IMG/VR virus record: IMGVR_UViG_3300027759_000307
Location: 1-29,805 of that record
DNA from: a virus
Direction: 5' to 3' (one strand)
Length of the DNA stretch: 29,805 bases
Shown: one piece after another, positions 9,282-26,978 of the stretch
Numbering within the stretch: the stretch's first letter is position 1
How the letters are laid out: each line of letters begins with the position of its first letter
Position numbers and translations under genes: made by a program
Notes under the pieces: model-generated
Database searches by the model: none
The model's input: the letters and a program-made list of their open reading frames with translations, nothing else
What the model was told of the DNA's origin: nothing

Positions 9282-9289
9282 TATTTATT
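9282..9289 (-). promoter_or_regulatory. T4-type late promoter-like octamer (AATAAATA)
   Basis: AATAAATA on the minus strand, overlapping the stop codon of the fibre gene (9288-9290). With normal T4 late spacing, transcription would start about seven bases before the gp8 ATG. Confidence 0.4.
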
Positions 9290-10670
9290 ATGTATTATAA
9301 GCAAGATAGATGCCTGCTGTGTTAGCAATGTTTATTTCACCAATCATTGCACCTGGATGAGCAGAACAACGATACTTATAATTTCCAACAGAGGTGTGTG
9401 GAATTCTCCAAAATAATGTTCCACTCACTTTACCTTGTGCATCTAAATCATAAGATAATGTTCCTGTGGTTGAAACATGAACTAAACCTGTATTATAGTC
9501 TGCGGTATTATCGCCAGTTCTAATATGAAATGGATGACCAGTAATGTTTAATTTAAATCCTAAAGTTGTGGCACTAAATGTTGATACATTAGGATTATCT
9601 AATACTCCATATTGAGAGAACCTATAAGCTGAAGTGCCACTATTTGTTACCTCTAGTATAGTTGTAGAACCAAATGATAACGCAAGATTTGCGGCAGTAT
9701 TTGCGAATTGAAAACCAGAGTTAGCATGGCCAAAAGCACTATTAGCATAAGAACTGGCAGAAGCACTTGAAGCACTATTGGCGGTAGAAAAAGCAGAGTT
9801 TGCGTAAGAAGATGCTGAATTTGCTACTTCAAATCCAGAGTTAGCATAAGAAGAAGCAGAAGCTGCGCCACCAGCACTATTAGCCGTTGAGAAAGCGGCA
9901 TTAGCGTAACTAGCAGCTGAATTTGCTACATGACTTGGAGTGTTAGCGGATAAGAAAGCGGAATTAGCATATGAACCAACATTTACTGTGGTGTTTGCAA
10001 CGGCAAATCCACTATTAGCGTAACTAGCAGCTGAATTAGCTACATGGCTTGGTGTATTAGCTGCCAAGAAAGCAGAATTGGCATATGACCCCGCAGCTGC
10101 ACTTGATGCTGAATTGGCGGTAGCAAAAGCTGAATTAGCATATGAACCAGCGCTATTGGCTGAACGGTCTGTAAGAACAGACAATGACATTTTTTTAGTT
10201 GTCGGTGTTCCACTTTCTAAATCAACAACTAAGAATATTGTATTTTGCGTGTTAGCTGATGGAGCAGATAGAAAATTTAAAGCATTAATTTTTACCTTAC
10301 TATTAATTGCTGTATTAGCCGTATTAGCTGTGGCAAATCCAGCATTAGCATAAATGGCTGCCGAATTAGCCACATGACTTGGAGTGTTTGCTCGTAAAAA
10401 TGATGAATTAGCATATGAACTGGCACTATTAGAGGCAGAAAAAGCCGAATTAGCATACGAACCTGTTGCTATTGCCGTATTAGCAATAGCGAAACCAGAG
10501 TTGGCATACAAACCAGCGGAAATGGCGTTAACACCTGCCGTATTGGCGGCAGAAAAGGCACCATTTGCATATGATGAAGCTGAATTAGCTACATAACTTG
10601 GCGTGTTAGCTTGTAAAAATGCTGAGTTAGCATGGCCAAAAGCTGAATTAGCATAGGTTTCGACTGACAT
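9288..10670 (-). CDS. Tail fibre: ANS-heptad stalk with cupredoxin-like tip
   Basis: 460 aa in two parts. Residues 1 to about 325 are ANS/ANT heptads (SYANSAF, FLAANTPSHVANSAASYANS), interrupted at about 122-168 by a non-repetitive segment (KVKINALNFLSAP...IFLVVDLESGTPTTKKMSL) resembling a tail-fibre beta module. The C-terminal part contains TTILEVTNSGTSAYRFSQYG and a cupredoxin-like domain with GHPFHI (H379, H382) and YRCSAHPGAMIG (C435, H438, M442). Related ANTPS-x-VANSA phrases occur in the fibre at 113-790. CAGGAAA about 12 bases before the ATG is the ribosome binding site. The gene is inserted between gp7 and gp8, adjacent in T4, which suggests a wedge-attached fibre. Similar cupredoxin-like tips are known to me in cyanophage fibre proteins; whether metal is bound is unknown. 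Confidence 0.8.
   Translation of the reverse strand: MSVETYANSAFGHANSAFLQANTPSYVANSASSYANGAFSAANTAGVNAISAGLYANSGFAIANTAIATGSYANSAFSASNSASSYANSSFLRANTPSHVANSAAIYANAGFATANTANTAINSKVKINALNFLSAPSANTQNTIFLVVDLESGTPTTKKMSLSVLTDRSANSAGSYANSAFATANSASSAAAGSYANSAFLAANTPSHVANSAASYANSGFAVANTTVNVGSYANSAFLSANTPSHVANSAASYANAAFSTANSAGGAASASSYANSGFEVANSASSYANSAFSTANSASSASASSYANSAFGHANSGFQFANTAANLALSFGSTTILEVTNSGTSAYRFSQYGVLDNPNVSTFSATTLGFKLNITGHPFHIRTGDNTADYNTGLVHVSTTGTLSYDLDAQGKVSGTLFWRIPHTSVGNYKYRCSAHPGAMIGEINIANTAGIYLAYNT
9327..9653 (-). other. Cupredoxin-like domain with type-1 copper ligand pattern
   Basis: Residues about 340-448 of the fibre at 9288-10670. The order His (GHPFHI) ... Cys-x2-His-x3-Met (CSAHPGAM) followed by IGEI is the ligand order of plastocyanin-like cupredoxins. 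The strand before the Cys (GNYKYRC) fits the usual penultimate beta strand. All four ligand positions are filled. Confidence 0.7.
9696..10670 (-). repeat. ANS-heptad coding repeats of the long fibre
   Basis: Imperfect tandem repeats of 21/42 bases coding A-N-S/T every seven residues, with an interruption around 10165-10310. The units are less uniform than those at 158-450 and include a recurring longer unit, FLxANTPSxVANSA. Confidence 0.85.
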
Positions 10671-19425: not shown

Positions 19426-20769
19426 TTATACCTTAGCTTGTGTAACTTCCCTAGGTTCTTCAAAATCTTCTTTAGTAAGATATGTTGTTTCTTGGAATGC
19501 TAATTTTAATGTCATAGCAACCGGCATACCTGTGCGACCCAATGATGGTTGATTTTCATTAGGAACTTCATAAGCAGAAAACCCATTTGGTGCATAATCA
19601 ATATCAATAGTTTGTAAAACACAAGTTGAAATTGGAGGAATGTTTGGGTTCTGTGAACCGTTGTAATAAAATTTAATATCAAACTCAGAAGGAGGAACTA
19701 AAAAAGCGGAAGACTCTTTAACTAATTCTGGAGATTGATGATACCGTAATCTTTCAACAATTCTTTGGACTTCAAGAGCTTCTCTTTCATCTCTTGGATA
19801 AAATTTAAATTCAAAATTAAAAGTTCTAAAATTTGGAGATTTATATAACATCTCCAACATTGGATTTCTAACAGCACCAGTAGCTGCAGCTGTAGCCAAA
19901 CGGGCAGTATTTTTACCAATAACTCCACCAGCAGCTTCACCAACAGTTTGAACACCCTCTCTGTATGCAGCTTTACCTCCACTCGCAGTAGCACCAGCAG
20001 CGGATTTTAAAACTCCTCCTCCTGATGAAATACCTTGTATGTAAGAATCTAATGCAGACTTACCTGCACCTAATACTTTACCGCCAAGTTCATCACCAAT
20101 ATTTGGAGAATCGTATGATTGTGAATAAGTATATGTAAGAGTATCTGGCATATACAATGCAATTGAATCTGTGGTAATATATGATGTTAGTCCATTAAAT
20201 ATACTTCCGCCAGTTACATTTTTAATTGAATTTTTAATGACAGCTTGAGTTTGAGCCGAGTTGCCGCCAAAGATAACACTAGTTTGGCCAAATAAGTTGT
20301 TAACACCACCAACAACACCGCCAATAGCAGAATCTAAAGCACTTGAAAAATTATTAAACAAACCACTAGCACCACCTGTAACTCCACTTACACCATTGTT
20401 AACTTTGTTCAACAATTCTCCACCAACAGCATTTCCTACATGAACAAGTGTTTTGTTTGCTTTGGCTGCAGCATTTTGTATCTCACTTTGAAGAATACCT
20501 TTTGCTTTGTTTTGTATATTGTTTTGAAGGCCTTGAAACCCTTTATCACCACCTTCAAACTTAGATGCTTGAGACCTACTCAATCTTTGTTTTCGTATAT
20601 AAATCATTAAATAATGGCCTTTATCACTATTGCCTATATCTAACGGAAACCTATAAGTGTTTTTAGTGAATTCACTACCAGCAAGAGATCCTAAGGGACC
20701 GGTTGCAAGAGAACCCCTTGCATCCACATTTTTATTAAATGAAATATCGGAGAATCCAAAGAGAGCCAT
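19426..20769 (-). CDS. 48: Baseplate tail-tube cap/initiator gp48
   Basis: 447 aa from the ATG at 20769 (MALFGFSDISFNK); T4 gp48 is 364. The C-terminal half aligns with T4: FRTFNFEFKFYPRDEREALE (T4 RTKVFTWDLTPRSTEDLMAI), RLRYHQSPEL, and CVLQTIDIDYAPNGFSAYEV...AMTLKLAFQETTYLTKEDF (T4 CQIQSIRFDKTPNGNF...TFTLEITMREIITLNR). The middle (about residues 80-300) is a long Gly/Ala/Ser-rich region with amphipathic stretches (NAVGGELLNKVNNGVSGV), longer than in T4. gp48 caps the hub and, with gp54, starts the tube. A weak GGGAAAA lies before the ATG. It is the first gene of the minus-strand block, downstream of a perfect late promoter. Confidence 0.85.
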   Translation of the reverse strand: MALFGFSDISFNKNVDARGSLATGPLGSLAGSEFTKNTYRFPLDIGNSDKGHYLMIYIRKQRLSRSQASKFEGGDKGFQGLQNNIQNKAKGILQSEIQNAAAKANKTLVHVGNAVGGELLNKVNNGVSGVTGGASGLFNNFSSALDSAIGGVVGGVNNLFGQTSVIFGGNSAQTQAVIKNSIKNVTGGSIFNGLTSYITTDSIALYMPDTLTYTYSQSYDSPNIGDELGGKVLGAGKSALDSYIQGISSGGGVLKSAAGATASGGKAAYREGVQTVGEAAGGVIGKNTARLATAAATGAVRNPMLEMLYKSPNFRTFNFEFKFYPRDEREALEVQRIVERLRYHQSPELVKESSAFLVPPSEFDIKFYYNGSQNPNIPPISTCVLQTIDIDYAPNGFSAYEVPNENQPSLGRTGMPVAMTLKLAFQETTYLTKEDFEEPREVTQAKV

Positions 20770-20798
20770 ATATTTTCCCAAAAAGGTTGACTAGATAG

Positions 20799-20806
20799 TA
20801 TTTATA
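20799..20806 (-). promoter_or_regulatory. T4-type late promoter (TATAAATA) for the baseplate block
   Basis: A perfect TATAAATA on the minus strand, 29 bases before the gp48 ATG. Standard spacing puts the start near 20793 and gives a leader of about 24 bases. The octamer overlaps by one base the ATG of the divergent gp4 gene at 20806. Confidence 0.75.
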
Positions 20807-21252
20807 TGACATTCGGCAAAACTTACAAAGGATGGTTCAATCCAAGGCACCCCACCAAATATAAAGGTGATGCGGATAACATCGTCTATCGGTCAACATG
20901 GGAACGCAGGGTAATGAAATGGTTGGATGAACATCCGAATGTTCTCTGGTGGTCGTCAGAAGAATTGGCAGTACCATACAAGTCTCCAGTTGACAATAAA
21001 ATGCACCGCTACTTTCCAGATTTTATCGCCAAAATGAGGTTGAAAGACGGCAAGGTAATGACTTATATTATTGAGGTAAAGCCAATGGCACAGACAAAGA
21101 TGCCTACTCAGAAAAGGAAAACCAAGAGGTTTCTACAAGAGATGGCAACTTATGCGATTAATCAGGAGAAGTGGAGAGCTGCGGACATATTCTGTCAGGA
21201 ACATGGGTGGAAGTTCCTCGTGGTAACGGAACAGGAACTTGGATTGCTATAG
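20806..21252 (+). CDS. 4: Head completion protein gp4
   Basis: 148 aa, same size as T4 gp4 (150). Landmarks: WFNPRHPTKYKGDADNIVYR, STWERRVMKWLDEHPNVLWW (T4-like YRSSWE...NPNI..WASEE), PYKSPVDNKMHRYFPDFI, YIIEVKPMAQTKMP, WRAADIFCQEHGWKF and VVTEQELGLL. The spaced E of STWE, D of FPDF and E-V-K resemble a TnsA/restriction-like nuclease fold, as reported for the gp4 family. gp4 acts on filled heads before tail joining. No ribosome binding site at normal distance (AAGG is about 18 bases away) and no plus-strand late octamer is seen. Its base composition is less AT-rich (about 47% GC over 20881-20940) than the flanking baseplate genes. Confidence 0.88.
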   Translation: MTFGKTYKGWFNPRHPTKYKGDADNIVYRSTWERRVMKWLDEHPNVLWWSSEELAVPYKSPVDNKMHRYFPDFIAKMRLKDGKVMTYIIEVKPMAQTKMPTQKRKTKRFLQEMATYAINQEKWRAADIFCQEHGWKFLVVTEQELGLL

Positions 21253-22704: not shown

Positions 22705-23436
22705 ATGTTACCGAAGTTAGATATACCGACTTATACAGTCAAATTGATTTCAACAGGAAAAACTGTTCGTTATCGTCCGTTTCTTGTGAAAGAACAAAAA
22801 TTGTTTTTAATGGCTTCAGAAGCAGATGATGCTAAAGAAACTATTAATACAATTCGTCAAGTGTTAAAAAATTGTGTATTGGATGAAATTGACATTGACA
22901 ATCTTCCAACATTTGATTTAGAGTACCTGTTCATGCACCTGCGGGCGAGGTCAGTAGAAGAAACGGTTGAATTAAAATACAAATGTAATAATACAGTAAA
23001 AGATGAAAAAGGTGAAGATGCCAAATGCAATGGTTCTGTTGCTTTTACATTGAATGTTCTTGAAGTTGAACCAACAATTAATCCAGAGCATAACAGTAAA
23101 ATTCAACTAAATGAAAACCTTGGTTTATCTTTAAAATACCCAACTTTTGAAATGATTCAAAAGTATGAAACCATGAATGAAGATGAAATTATGATGAAAG
23201 TTTTGGTTGATTGTATAGATTATGTTTATGATAAAGAACAAATCTATTATGCCAAAGATTCTACCAAAGAAGAGCTTGGTGAATTTGTTGATAATTTACA
23301 ACAAAAAGATTTGGAAAAGATTAAACAATTCTTTGATACAATGCCTGAAATTAAAAAAGATGTTCACTTCAAATGTCCAAAATGTGCATATGAAGAAGAT
23401 ATTGAGATTAAGGGCATCCAAAGTTTTTTCGTCTAA
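22705..23436 (+). CDS. 26: Baseplate hub assembly / tail chaperone protein, gp26-like, frame-0 product
   Basis: 243 aa. MLPKLDIPTYTVKLISTGKT, VRYRPFLVKEQKLFLMASEA and LKNCVLDEIDIDNLPTFDLE, YLFMHLRARSVEE match the T4_baseplate family that includes gp26. Cysteines C94 and C108 plus C224-x2-C227 form a probable split zinc ribbon (LKYKCNN...DAKCNGS and HFKCPKCAYEED). GAGG nine bases before the ATG is a good ribosome binding site. The last codons AGT TTT TTC GTC TAA contain an in-phase slippery heptamer; a -1 slip avoids the stop and adds 64 residues. In T4 these proteins help assemble the hub and tape measure; by layout this pair resembles the lambda G/GT chaperones. Confidence 0.85.
   Translation: MLPKLDIPTYTVKLISTGKTVRYRPFLVKEQKLFLMASEADDAKETINTIRQVLKNCVLDEIDIDNLPTFDLEYLFMHLRARSVEETVELKYKCNNTVKDEKGEDAKCNGSVAFTLNVLEVEPTINPEHNSKIQLNENLGLSLKYPTFEMIQKYETMNEDEIMMKVLVDCIDYVYDKEQIYYAKDSTKEELGEFVDNLQQKDLEKIKQFFDTMPEIKKDVHFKCPKCAYEEDIEIKGIQSFFV
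23424..23430 (+). promoter_or_regulatory. -1 programmed frameshift slippery heptamer (TTTTTTC)
   Basis: T TTT TTC lies exactly in the X XXY YYZ phase of the frame-0 gene, two codons before its stop. The -1 frame is open only from 23412, so the shift window is about 25 bases and this is the only slippery site in it. A possible weak downstream stem (TGATA 23447-23451 with TATCA about 14 bases later) was seen; no strong stimulator. Confidence 0.7.
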
Positions 23437-23624
23437 TTTTTCGTTATGATACATTGAGTAACTACTATCAGACAAACTTTGCTTTAATGCAACACCACAA
23501 GTATAGTTTGACTGAACTTGAAAATATGTTACCTTGGGAAAGAAATATCTACTTGGCACTTTTAATGAAGTACCTTGAAGAAGAAAGAGAACGCATTAAA
23601 TTACAAAAACAAGCTAAACGATAA
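23430..23624 (+). CDS. -1 frame extension (tail chaperone 'T' part) of the gp26-like gene
   Basis: Sixty-four codons read in the -1 frame after slippage, giving a 306-aa fusion (join 22705..23430, 23430..23624). The peptide RLIFRYDTLSNYYQTNFALM, QHHKYSLTELENMLPWERNI, YLALLMKYLEEERERIKLQK looks like real protein from the shift point onward. The first ATG is codon 20 and has no ribosome binding site, so independent translation would lose protein-like sequence. The pattern 'YSLTELENMLPWE...' followed by a charged helix resembles the T domain of siphophage chaperones. The stop overlaps the start of the next gene (TAATG), coupling it to tape-measure synthesis. If not frameshifted, a separate 45-aa protein from ATG 23487 is the alternative. 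Confidence 0.7.
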   Translation, partial: RLIFRYDTLSNYYQTNFALMQHHKYSLTELENMLPWERNIYLALLMKYLEEERERIKLQKQAKR

Positions 23625-25264
23625 TGGCAACATTAAAAGAACTAATTAAAAAAGACCCGGCTATAAAGTCAATAACATCCGCTTTTGATCCTAAAGAGAT
23701 GAAAAAGCGGGCGGTTGAAGGTGCTTTTAGTGGAGAAGGAATACTTTCCGCTTACATAAGAGGTCAGCTTGGTGTTAAAGGTAAAAAAGGAGCTACAGCT
23801 GAAAAAACTTCTTCTGGTGTAGCATCTCCTGAATTTACTAGTAATTTAAAATCTATCGCTGATAGTGCGATGTCTTTGCCTGTAATTGCAAGATATATGA
23901 AAGTTCTTGCTTTAAATATGATTAAACTTGCCGTGGCTGGCAAAGGCGGTAAAAAAGGCAGACAGTCTAAACAGAGAGAAGAAGGAACAGTCCAAGCCGA
24001 ATATAAAAAAGACATGGACTTCTTTAAAGCTCAAGATGCTGAAGAAGCTAAAATAGAAGCAGAAAGAGCTAAAAGTAAAACATCTCCTACTCAAGAGGGC
24101 ACTAAATCTGAAAAACCAAAAGAAGAAGGTGGCATATTAGATACGATTTTACAATTTTTTAAAGGTGGTATCTTAAATGCAATAAAAGAAATATTTAATC
24201 CAGCAAATCTGCTAAGTATCTTTAAAAAAGTTTTTATAATTGCAACCATATTTGCTTCTTTATTTGAAGGTATTACGGCTGCATTTAACAAATTTAAAGA
24301 AACCGGTTCTATTAAAGATGCCATTATTGCAGGTCTAGGTGCAATATTAGATTTCTTAACATTTGGTTTATTTGGTGAAGATAATGTTAAGAAAATGTTT
24401 AAAGCTGTTGAAGATTTTATTAATCCAATCATACAATCAATTTCAGAAACAATTACAGCAATTAAAGATTGGGTTGCAAACAATATTGGTATTCCTAAAA
24501 TTGGATTTAAAGTATTAGGCAAAGAAGTTGCTATTGGTCCATGGTACCCATTTAAAAATGACCCAACAAGTGAAGAACCACAGAAAACACAAACTCCTGT
24601 TGTAGCTGATGTTAAGGGTGATTCATCAACACCAGCGGCCGCTGGCACAGAATCTAAACCTGGTAGTATGTCAGACTATTCAGCTGGTGCTAAAGCATTA
24701 CAAGAAAAATATGGTAATGTATCAGCAAATGAATCATCACCAACATTTGAGTTGCCTAAAGATGCTGCTGAAGCACAAAAATTAATTGTTGAACAAGCAT
24801 CAAAAGTTCTTGGAATGCCTTTGCCTGATCCAGAAAAAATGGCAAAAGAAGGAACAACAGGAAGTCCTGAATTAGATAAAACAATTAAAGAACAAATTGA
24901 AGGTGTAATAAAAGAAAAGAAATTAGAACCACAACCAGCATCTGGCGGTGGAGGTGGTGAAGTTTCAGCTGGTGGCAGTAGTACCGGTGGTGGAGGTGGT
25001 GAAGTTTCAGCTGGTGGCAGTAGTAGTACCGGCCAAGATGTAAGTCCTTCTCCTTCTGGTGCTGAACCCGCTATGAGTGGTGAATCATTATCTAATGCCT
25101 CAGCTGACATAGCAGAACAACAAAGAATGGAATCTTCTGCTGATGTAGGCAATCAAATGAATAATTCTTCTGTTACAAACAATTCAAGTTCTGAAGGCAA
25201 AGAACCAAAACCACAAATTGCTGATGTTTATGATACTGAATTTGCAAAACTTTTAGCAGCATAA
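23624..25264 (+). CDS. Tape-measure-like tail protein, copy 1
   Basis: 546 aa. N-terminal helices (LKELIKKDPAIKSITSAFDP; ILSAYIRGQLGVKGK; MSLPVIARYMKVLALNMIKL), a charged helical stretch at about 110-168, then a hydrophobic block at about 170-275 (FIIATIFASLFEGITAAFNK, FKETGSIKDAIIAGLGAILD, FLTFGLFGEDNVKKMFKAVE). The rest is low-complexity, with a duplicated Gly-rich unit at 438-468 and a Ser/Asn-rich tail. The hydrophobic block matches that of the next protein, so the two are tandem paralogues. Size is near T4 gp29 (590), the tape measure, and position directly after a chaperone gene with a frameshift is where tape measures lie in other tails. No sequence match to gp29 could be made by eye, so the role is inferred. 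Confidence 0.6.
   Translation: MATLKELIKKDPAIKSITSAFDPKEMKKRAVEGAFSGEGILSAYIRGQLGVKGKKGATAEKTSSGVASPEFTSNLKSIADSAMSLPVIARYMKVLALNMIKLAVAGKGGKKGRQSKQREEGTVQAEYKKDMDFFKAQDAEEAKIEAERAKSKTSPTQEGTKSEKPKEEGGILDTILQFFKGGILNAIKEIFNPANLLSIFKKVFIIATIFASLFEGITAAFNKFKETGSIKDAIIAGLGAILDFLTFGLFGEDNVKKMFKAVEDFINPIIQSISETITAIKDWVANNIGIPKIGFKVLGKEVAIGPWYPFKNDPTSEEPQKTQTPVVADVKGDSSTPAAAGTESKPGSMSDYSAGAKALQEKYGNVSANESSPTFELPKDAAEAQKLIVEQASKVLGMPLPDPEKMAKEGTTGSPELDKTIKEQIEGVIKEKKLEPQPASGGGGGEVSAGGSSTGGGGGEVSAGGSSSTGQDVSPSPSGAEPAMSGESLSNASADIAEQQRMESSADVGNQMNNSSVTNNSSSEGKEPKPQIADVYDTEFAKLLAA
24947..25032 (+). repeat. 42-bp direct tandem duplication in copy 1
   Basis: Two nearly identical copies (24947-24988 and 24989-25032) coding GGGGEVSAGGSST. 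The second has one extra AGT codon; near-identity at the DNA level suggests a recent duplication in a flexible linker. Confidence 0.85.
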
Positions 25265-25265
25265 T

Positions 25266-26978
25266 ATGGCAAAAACATCTCCAACTCCAGAAAATTCTCC
25301 TGTAATTCAAGAAGATTCAGATACTCTTGTTAAGAGTATTGCTAAGAATTTTTTAAGACTCCCTGAGATTTCAAAAAATCTTCAGATAGCTAACATTCAT
25401 CTTTTAAAGATGGTGAAGAAAACTGGTGCTCGTCCTACCACATATGGTGATGTTGCATTAGAAGAAGATGAAGAAAAAATAAAAGCAGAAAAGGAGCTTA
25501 CAGCCAAAAAAGTAACACCTGTAAAAGAAGAAAAAGAAAGTGGAATATTTGGTAAAATAGGCAAAAAAATATTTGATAAATTTAAATCAACTAAAGTTGG
25601 TGGTAAATTAGTATCTATTGGTCAAAATTTATTAAAAGGATTCAAATCAATTTTTAGTCCTAAAAACTTTATGAAAATACTTGGTCGCCTTGCTTTACCA
25701 CTAGTAATATTATCATCATTATTTGAAGGGTTCACCTCTGCATTTGATATGTGGAAAGAAACAGGAAGTATTTTTGAAACTTTTAAAGCCTTTGTTGGCG
25801 GCATAACTGAATTTTTTACATTTGGTTTAATTGATAAACAAATGGTCTCAGATTTTTATGATTGGGGATTAGGTGCAATTGAAAAGATTCTTACCGCTGT
25901 TGCTAAATTCTTTGGATTTGGTGATTTATTTACAGAGAAGTTTGCTAAAGTAAAAGAGTTTTTAGGTGTTGGTATTAAACCAAAATCTAAAACTTTCACA
26001 ATAGAAGAACCTCCATCTGAAAAGAAAGAAGCTAAAAAAGAACCTGAAGTTAAGAAACCAGTAGAAAAAGCACCAGCGCCAGCAGCACCAGCAGCACCAG
26101 CGCCAGCAGCGCCAGCCCCAACGCCAGCACCAGCAGCACCAGTTGGAGCTGAACCGCAACCAACACCAACAAAAGCACCAACTGTAGCACCTGAAGCAAA
26201 ACCTTCAGAAGCCAAACCTGTTAAAATTGGAGAAAGTTCTGGTAAAGATGCTATGATTAAAGCAATGGACAGTAATAAGATTACTGACCCAACTGCTCGT
26301 GCAGCTATTATGGCACAAGTAGGACATGAATCTGGTAATTTTACCATGTTAAGTGAGAATCTTAATTATAAACCAGCAACACTTTTAAAAATATTTCCAA
26401 AATACTTTAAGTCACCAGAAGAAGCACAACAAACTTCCGCTCAAGGACCAGCCGCTATTGCAAATCGTGTATATGGCGGAAGAATGGGTAATACAGAACC
26501 AGGAGATGGTTTTAAATATCGTGGCCGAGGATTTATTCAATTAACAGGTAAATCAAACTATAAAAAGTTTGGTGTTGATGCAAATCCTGATTCTGTGGCA
26601 GATATTAATGTGGCTGCAGATACCGCTATTGGGTATATGAAGCAATACAAAGGTGATTGGGGTGATGTTAAAGCTGTAACCAAATTTGTAAACGGTGGTT
26701 ACATTGGACTTGAAGATAGAGCAAAACATTTTCAAGCATATCTAAATGATCCAAAAATAACTCAAGTAACTGGTGGTCAAACTGTTGCTAGTGGTGGTAG
26801 TGTTGCATCTGCTTCATCCGATGTTGCTGTTGGACAAAGGCAACAAGCAAAACCATCTACACCTATGATTGTTAATAATACTACTGTTAATAATAATACT
26901 TCAACAAAAACAACATTACCAGCTCAAGCAAGAGATAATAATTCAACTAACAATATGTTGATGGCTAGAGCCGCATAA
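25266..26978 (+). CDS. Tape-measure-like tail protein, copy 2, with GH19 muralytic domain
   Basis: 570 aa. Residues 131-212 repeat the hydrophobic block of the previous gene (ALPLVILSSLFEGFTSAFDM, WKETGSIFETFKAFVGGITE, FFTFGLIDKQMVSDF). A long Ala/Pro linker (about 269-318) leads to a glycoside hydrolase 19-like domain at about 320-495: ARAAIMAQVGHESGNFTMLS, ENLNYKP, FKYRGRGFIQLTGKSNY and FVNGGYIGLEDR. E355 (GHES) is the likely general acid, with E364 a candidate second acid. The C-terminus is Asn/Thr-rich (NNTTVNNNTS). The domain would cut cell-wall glycan at injection; since gp5 here has no lysozyme, this is probably the virion's wall-degrading enzyme. It could also be read as an endolysin, but fusion to the tail-type block argues against that. 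Starts one base after the preceding stop. Confidence 0.72.
   Translation: MAKTSPTPENSPVIQEDSDTLVKSIAKNFLRLPEISKNLQIANIHLLKMVKKTGARPTTYGDVALEEDEEKIKAEKELTAKKVTPVKEEKESGIFGKIGKKIFDKFKSTKVGGKLVSIGQNLLKGFKSIFSPKNFMKILGRLALPLVILSSLFEGFTSAFDMWKETGSIFETFKAFVGGITEFFTFGLIDKQMVSDFYDWGLGAIEKILTAVAKFFGFGDLFTEKFAKVKEFLGVGIKPKSKTFTIEEPPSEKKEAKKEPEVKKPVEKAPAPAAPAAPAPAAPAPTPAPAAPVGAEPQPTPTKAPTVAPEAKPSEAKPVKIGESSGKDAMIKAMDSNKITDPTARAAIMAQVGHESGNFTMLSENLNYKPATLLKIFPKYFKSPEEAQQTSAQGPAAIANRVYGGRMGNTEPGDGFKYRGRGFIQLTGKSNYKKFGVDANPDSVADINVAADTAIGYMKQYKGDWGDVKAVTKFVNGGYIGLEDRAKHFQAYLNDPKITQVTGGQTVASGGSVASASSDVAVGQRQQAKPSTPMIVNNTTVNNNTSTKTTLPAQARDNNSTNNMLMARAA

Follow-up and report, generated by a model that had tools for sequence, protein, structure and literature searches.

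Gene content of the locus

The window, that is the whole 29.8-kb virus record analysed, carries a gp26-like gene that is surrounded by T4-like tail and head-completion genes according to profile scans. The 0-frame protein matches PF12322 (T4_baseplate / gp26) over residues 8-242 with 208.5 bits, against a curated cut-off of 24.5. The gene ends AGT TTT TTC GTC TAA; a single codon, GTC, lies between the in-phase heptamer and the stop, and the position agrees with that given by the first-pass annotation of this DNA. The -1 frame is open from 23412 to 23621 and its stop (23622-23624) has one base in common with the next ATG at 23624, again as that annotation had it, including the 64 codons and the terminal overlap. 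The -1 ORF matches the gp51 family profile PHROG_634 ("baseplate hub assembly catalyst") and, in addition, the last 50 positions of PHROG_150, the gp26 family profile, which hints that some gp26-family members carry both parts. The predicted products are a 243-aa protein from the 0 frame and a 306-aa fusion (Table 1).

Table 1. Features of the gp26/gp51-like locus, in window positions.
Feature	Position	Strand	Basis
Short form, gp26-like (TAC-N / G-type), 243 aa	22705..23436	+	PF12322 1.3e-61; PHROG_150 5e-70; residues 1-94 match solved tail-assembly chaperones
SD-like AAGGG, 9 nt upstream of slippery heptamer	23410..23414	+	conserved position, synonymous codon bias
Slippery heptamer T_TTT_TTC	23424..23430	+	in-phase X_XXY_YYZ with -1 extension in 172/178 related loci
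0-frame stop TAA, one codon past heptamer	23434..23436	+	equal spacing in 168/172 loci
-1 frame extension (TAC-C / T-type, gp51-like), 64 codons + stop, predicted 306-aa fusion	23430..23624	+	PHROG_634 5.6e-27 over 64 residues; pN/pS 0.156 in -1
Next gene, 546 aa, candidate tape measure	23624..25264	+	position only

Conservation of the slip site

TTTTTTC occurs in phase just once in the 9,644 codons of the window's genes, and it is the sole in-phase X_XXY_YYZ of any kind that lies 12 codons or less from a stop in these genes. A comparative set of 178 loci with both parts readable was assembled from IMG/VR and named phages. The first-pass annotation had looked to conservation among relatives as a check on its frameshift proposal; the extension is in the -1 frame in 177 of the 178 loci and is accompanied by an in-phase slippery heptamer in 172, most of the loci being related to one another and the counts therefore not independent events. 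With a cut at 85% identity across the final 300 nt, 109 distinct genes are left, and 104 of these have the heptamer. The site is TTTTTTC, one codon ahead of the stop, in 165 of the 172 heptamer loci. None of the 95 Phe-Phe pairs found at other places in these genes is written T_TTT_TTY. All 77 IMG/VR near relatives in which the junction is covered retain both the heptamer and the open -1 frame; in one of the near relatives (L061) the gp26 frame is broken early, through either an error or a real mutation, while the junction and the extension are retained.

Heptamer-bearing phages include cyanophages, a Pelagibacter phage, and phages of Vibrio, Aeromonas, Rhizobium, Stenotrophomonas, Pseudomonas and Acidovorax; among those with names are Kyanoviridae, HTVC008M, nt-1, phiAS5, Mendera, pf16, ACP17 and the Rhizobium phages. 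Five Ackermannviridae loci (L094, L096, L098, L099 and L100) have the extension in -1 but no canonical heptamer. Their sites read CTT TTT C, GTT TTC, ATT TTC or GCT TTC, and possibly support single-codon T_TTY slips or reinitiation. In S-SCSM1 (MK867354.2) the heptamer is intact and the extension is in the +1 frame, which suggests that the deposited sequence contains an indel or that the phage mutated recently.

Selection on the -1 frame and the question of its own start

Measured across 48 codons downstream of the stop, the -1 frame has a pN/pS of 0.156, as against 1.2 and 2.5 for the remaining two frames, and it is free of stops in the 77 relatives. These substitution patterns indicate purifying selection on the -1 frame. 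From the stop to the first ATG (15 codons) pN/pS is 0.104, against 0.171 in the remainder of the frame; constraint ahead of the ATG implies that translation enters upstream of any start codon. The earlier claim that the frame has no usable start before its 20th codon holds for ATG, the first of which is the 20th codon after the shift (23487), but passed over a TTG at the 9th (23454).

The alternative that deserves most weight, improbable as it is, is that gp51 is a small protein in its own right, with the second ORF translated either from a start of its own or by ribosomes that reinitiate after the gp26 stop. Many database records do annotate a separate gp51, and in HTVC008M and S-RSM4 it begins at an internal ATG ~50 nt past the gp26 stop; an annotation that starts there misses the conserved first part of the extension. 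An ATG overlaps the gp26 stop (TAATG/TGATG) in 7 of 20 named phages (L089, L090, L091, L092, L094, L096 and L103) and in 2 of 79 cyanophage-like loci. Against this, no such overlap occurs in the 77 near relatives, where the first ATG or GTG of the -1 ORF lies at least 50 nt past the stop with no SD ahead of it, and the codons preceding the first ATG are the most constrained of the frame. An independent start is rejected for the window and its near relatives on account of this pre-ATG constraint and the missing SD. Of the seven named phages whose ATG overlaps the stop, moreover, five retain the heptamer, the exceptions being the Ackermannviridae L094 and L096. Reinitiation could add a separate small protein wherever the ATG overlaps the stop, and loci that also have the heptamer could make both the fusion and the free small protein. 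The first-pass annotation had named two findings that would speak against frameshifting, a conserved start with a ribosome binding site for the second ORF and a disrupted heptamer beside two intact ORFs; neither was seen in the near relatives. The records of ACG-2014d, ACG-2014e and S-CAM1 have no gene at the extension.

An SD-like element upstream of the slip site

All 77 near relatives and 73/79 cyanophage-like loci have an SD-like core of the AAGGG, GAGGG or GGAGG type whose end lies 8-10 nt upstream of the heptamer. As background, such a core is found at 6-14 nt from 4-10% of the other in-phase positions in the same genes. Codon choice at the element is biased: outside the near group, the Glu before a conserved Gly is encoded GAG:GAA 60:7 at the site versus 11:49 elsewhere (P about 1e-16), and within the near group Lys leans to AAG (12:4 versus 1:5 elsewhere, a small background; P 0.02), both P values overstating independence through shared ancestry. 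The spacing is in keeping with a dnaX-type frameshift stimulator and not with an initiation signal for the -1 ORF, and the element would then act to stimulate slippage. A hairpin or pseudoknot downstream is unsupported (z -1.2, one pair with a compensatory change), and an Rfam scan gave a single match far below its cut-off.

The fixed spacing of the SD-like element also points to the ribosome, and not to RNA polymerase, as the agent of the shift. Transcriptional slippage on the T run could in principle yield the long form, and the six-T run sits at the right position; it is nonetheless very unlikely, given that the runs on which bacterial transcription is described as slipping are about 9 A or T long (PMC5009743) and that at 165 loci the run is fixed at six T followed by C, with the codon phase preserved. 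A fixed indel or a sequencing error in a once-continuous gene, as the continuous gp51 of T4 might suggest, is scarcely credible as the origin of the frame change when the -1 relation recurs in 177/178 loci from many separate assemblies, with a conserved slip site and biased synonymous codons.

Relation to gp26 and gp51 of T4

T4 gp26 ends where PF12322 ends and corresponds to the short form alone. T4 gp51 has PF12322 at residues 1-201 followed by the extension, all in one frame, and an extension profile built without T4 finds its residues 200-243 (4e-5). In T-even gp26 genes, whose genomes have a separate gp51, the heptamer is absent in 11/11, with Phe-Phe written TTC TTT in eight. Set beside the frameshifting genes, the slip site is thus present with a -1 extension and absent with a separate long-form gene, and the T-even gp26 genes appear to have lost it. 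In a tree of gp26, gp51 N-domains and the frameshifting genes, the gp26 and gp51 N-domain sequences of the T-evens form separate, fully supported groups apart from the frameshifting genes; the tree does not fix its root or, with it, the timing of the gp26/gp51 duplication.

Predicted fold

The model of the window's short form has a mean pLDDT of 88. Searched against solved structures, its N-terminal domain ranks 3fgx, the HK97 chaperone 2ob9 and YqbN (3klu) first to third, with Z scores of 7.8, 7.2 and 7.0 and the next at 4.8; 3fgx and 3klu are also members of the tail-assembly chaperone family. The match to the chaperone fold is a moderate one, all Z scores being below 8, and was seen with the window's own short-form model only. 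The N-terminal 84 residues superpose on 2OB9 with an rmsd of 3.4 over 83 residues, but sequence identity is 10% and the T4-like protein has an extra domain with paired cysteines. A family-profile sequence search of solved structures returned nothing relevant. In a model of a T4-like gp51 (pLDDT 95) the extension is a small helical domain; for this model Foldseek gave no match in the PDB at E up to 0.001, and the best Z from VIA-align was 3.6. The structure ranking just below the chaperones (Z 4.8, against 22705-23433) is 5ir0, ORF19 of a V. cholerae PICI-like element, a model-based resemblance that raises the idea that phage satellites carry chaperone look-alikes.

A probable two-form tail-assembly chaperone

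The locus is best read as a two-form tail-assembly chaperone, with a 243-aa short form and a 306-aa form reached by a -1 slip on T_TTT_TTC; a probability of about 0.92 is assigned to this reading. The G/GT-style pair that the first-pass annotation proposed is supported by the conservation of the slip site, selection on the -1 frame, the lack of a conserved start, the homology to gp51 and the fold match to HK97. In the proposed mechanism most ribosomes would terminate at 23434 and release the short form. A minority would slip back one base on the heptamer, aided by pairing of the AAGGG 9 nt upstream with 16S rRNA and perhaps also by the stop one codon further on, and would produce the long form with its 64-residue helical C-terminus. 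If the parallel with lambda gpG/gpGT holds, the part common to both forms would coat the tape measure, and the extension would recruit tail-tube subunits. Slippage itself, and its efficiency, we infer from sequence.

The locus resembles lambda in that the -1 slip comes shortly before the short-form gene ends and the rarer long form has a C-terminal extension; the difference is that Pfam and PHROGs scans give no family match to lambda G/T and no profile finds the tape measure in the window. The E. coli dnaX gene likewise has a homopolymeric heptamer, with an SD-like stimulator some 10 nt ahead of it and a stop soon after, but its shifted product is the short one, and the window locus is without a supported 3' stem-loop. 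The closest system is the TAC-N / TAC-NC pair of T4-like phages (T4 genes 26 and 51), which has the same protein family and two-form logic; T4 uses two genes whereas the window phage frameshifts.

The abstract of a 2022 study by Vladimirov et al. reportedly states that frameshifting is retained in several T4-like groups and that T4 uses genes 26 and 51. Two later papers (PMC10885494, PMC12846349) give that study (Vladimirov, Gautam, Davidson 2022, Virology 566:9-15) as their source on T4-like tail-assembly chaperones. The first, the PRFect paper, cites it for the use of a short gene and a fusion gene by T4-like phages (PMC10885494), and the second credits it with poly-T slip signals in their TAC-N genes (PMC12846349). 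A literature search under the gp26/gp51 names, which did not cover the 2022 paper, found no earlier report. The frameshifted chaperone thus represents a known mechanism, correctly found again in a new lineage, and not a new kind of system; likewise, the first-pass assignment of the gp26 family as a G-type chaperone was right but already published. The SD-like element with its synonymous codon bias is the part for which no precedent was traced, and may be in the 2022 paper.

The published identification is extended here to a large uncultivated lineage, and the short, truncated or missing "gp51" annotations of many marine T4-like genomes are explained. The results also favour viewing the two T4 proteins, gp26 and gp51, as the short and long members of a resolved pair and not as unrelated hub factors. 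The SD-like element together with the slip site could provide a testable rule for the balance of two chaperone forms. The odds are about even for a more general proposal: that in T4-like phages the ratio of forms is set, without RNA structure, by an internal SD that lies 8-10 nt ahead of the slip site and is kept there by selection on synonymous codons, and that the T-evens escaped this control by transferring the long form to a gene of its own and erasing the slip site.

Neighbouring genes

The next two genes (23624-25264 and 25266-26978) have no tape-measure profile match in Pfam or PHROGs, and the first has no family match of any kind in these collections. They are paralogous (29% over about 219 aa), and an endolysin-like domain (PHROG_181, 6e-52) is present in the second. 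Either gene, or both, may encode the tape measure, and the second would then have a cell-wall enzyme fused to it. Tape-measure profiles match a gene of HTVC008M that lies two positions beyond gp51. Residues 85-270 of the window's tail tube cap gene (19426-20781) also have weak tape-measure profile matches. The genes at 113-790 and 9288-10670 share numerous YANSGFAVANSA-type repeats, as a fibrous tail protein might. A TnsA-like endonuclease domain (PF08722, 1e-22) is present in the gp4-like head closure protein (20806-21252).
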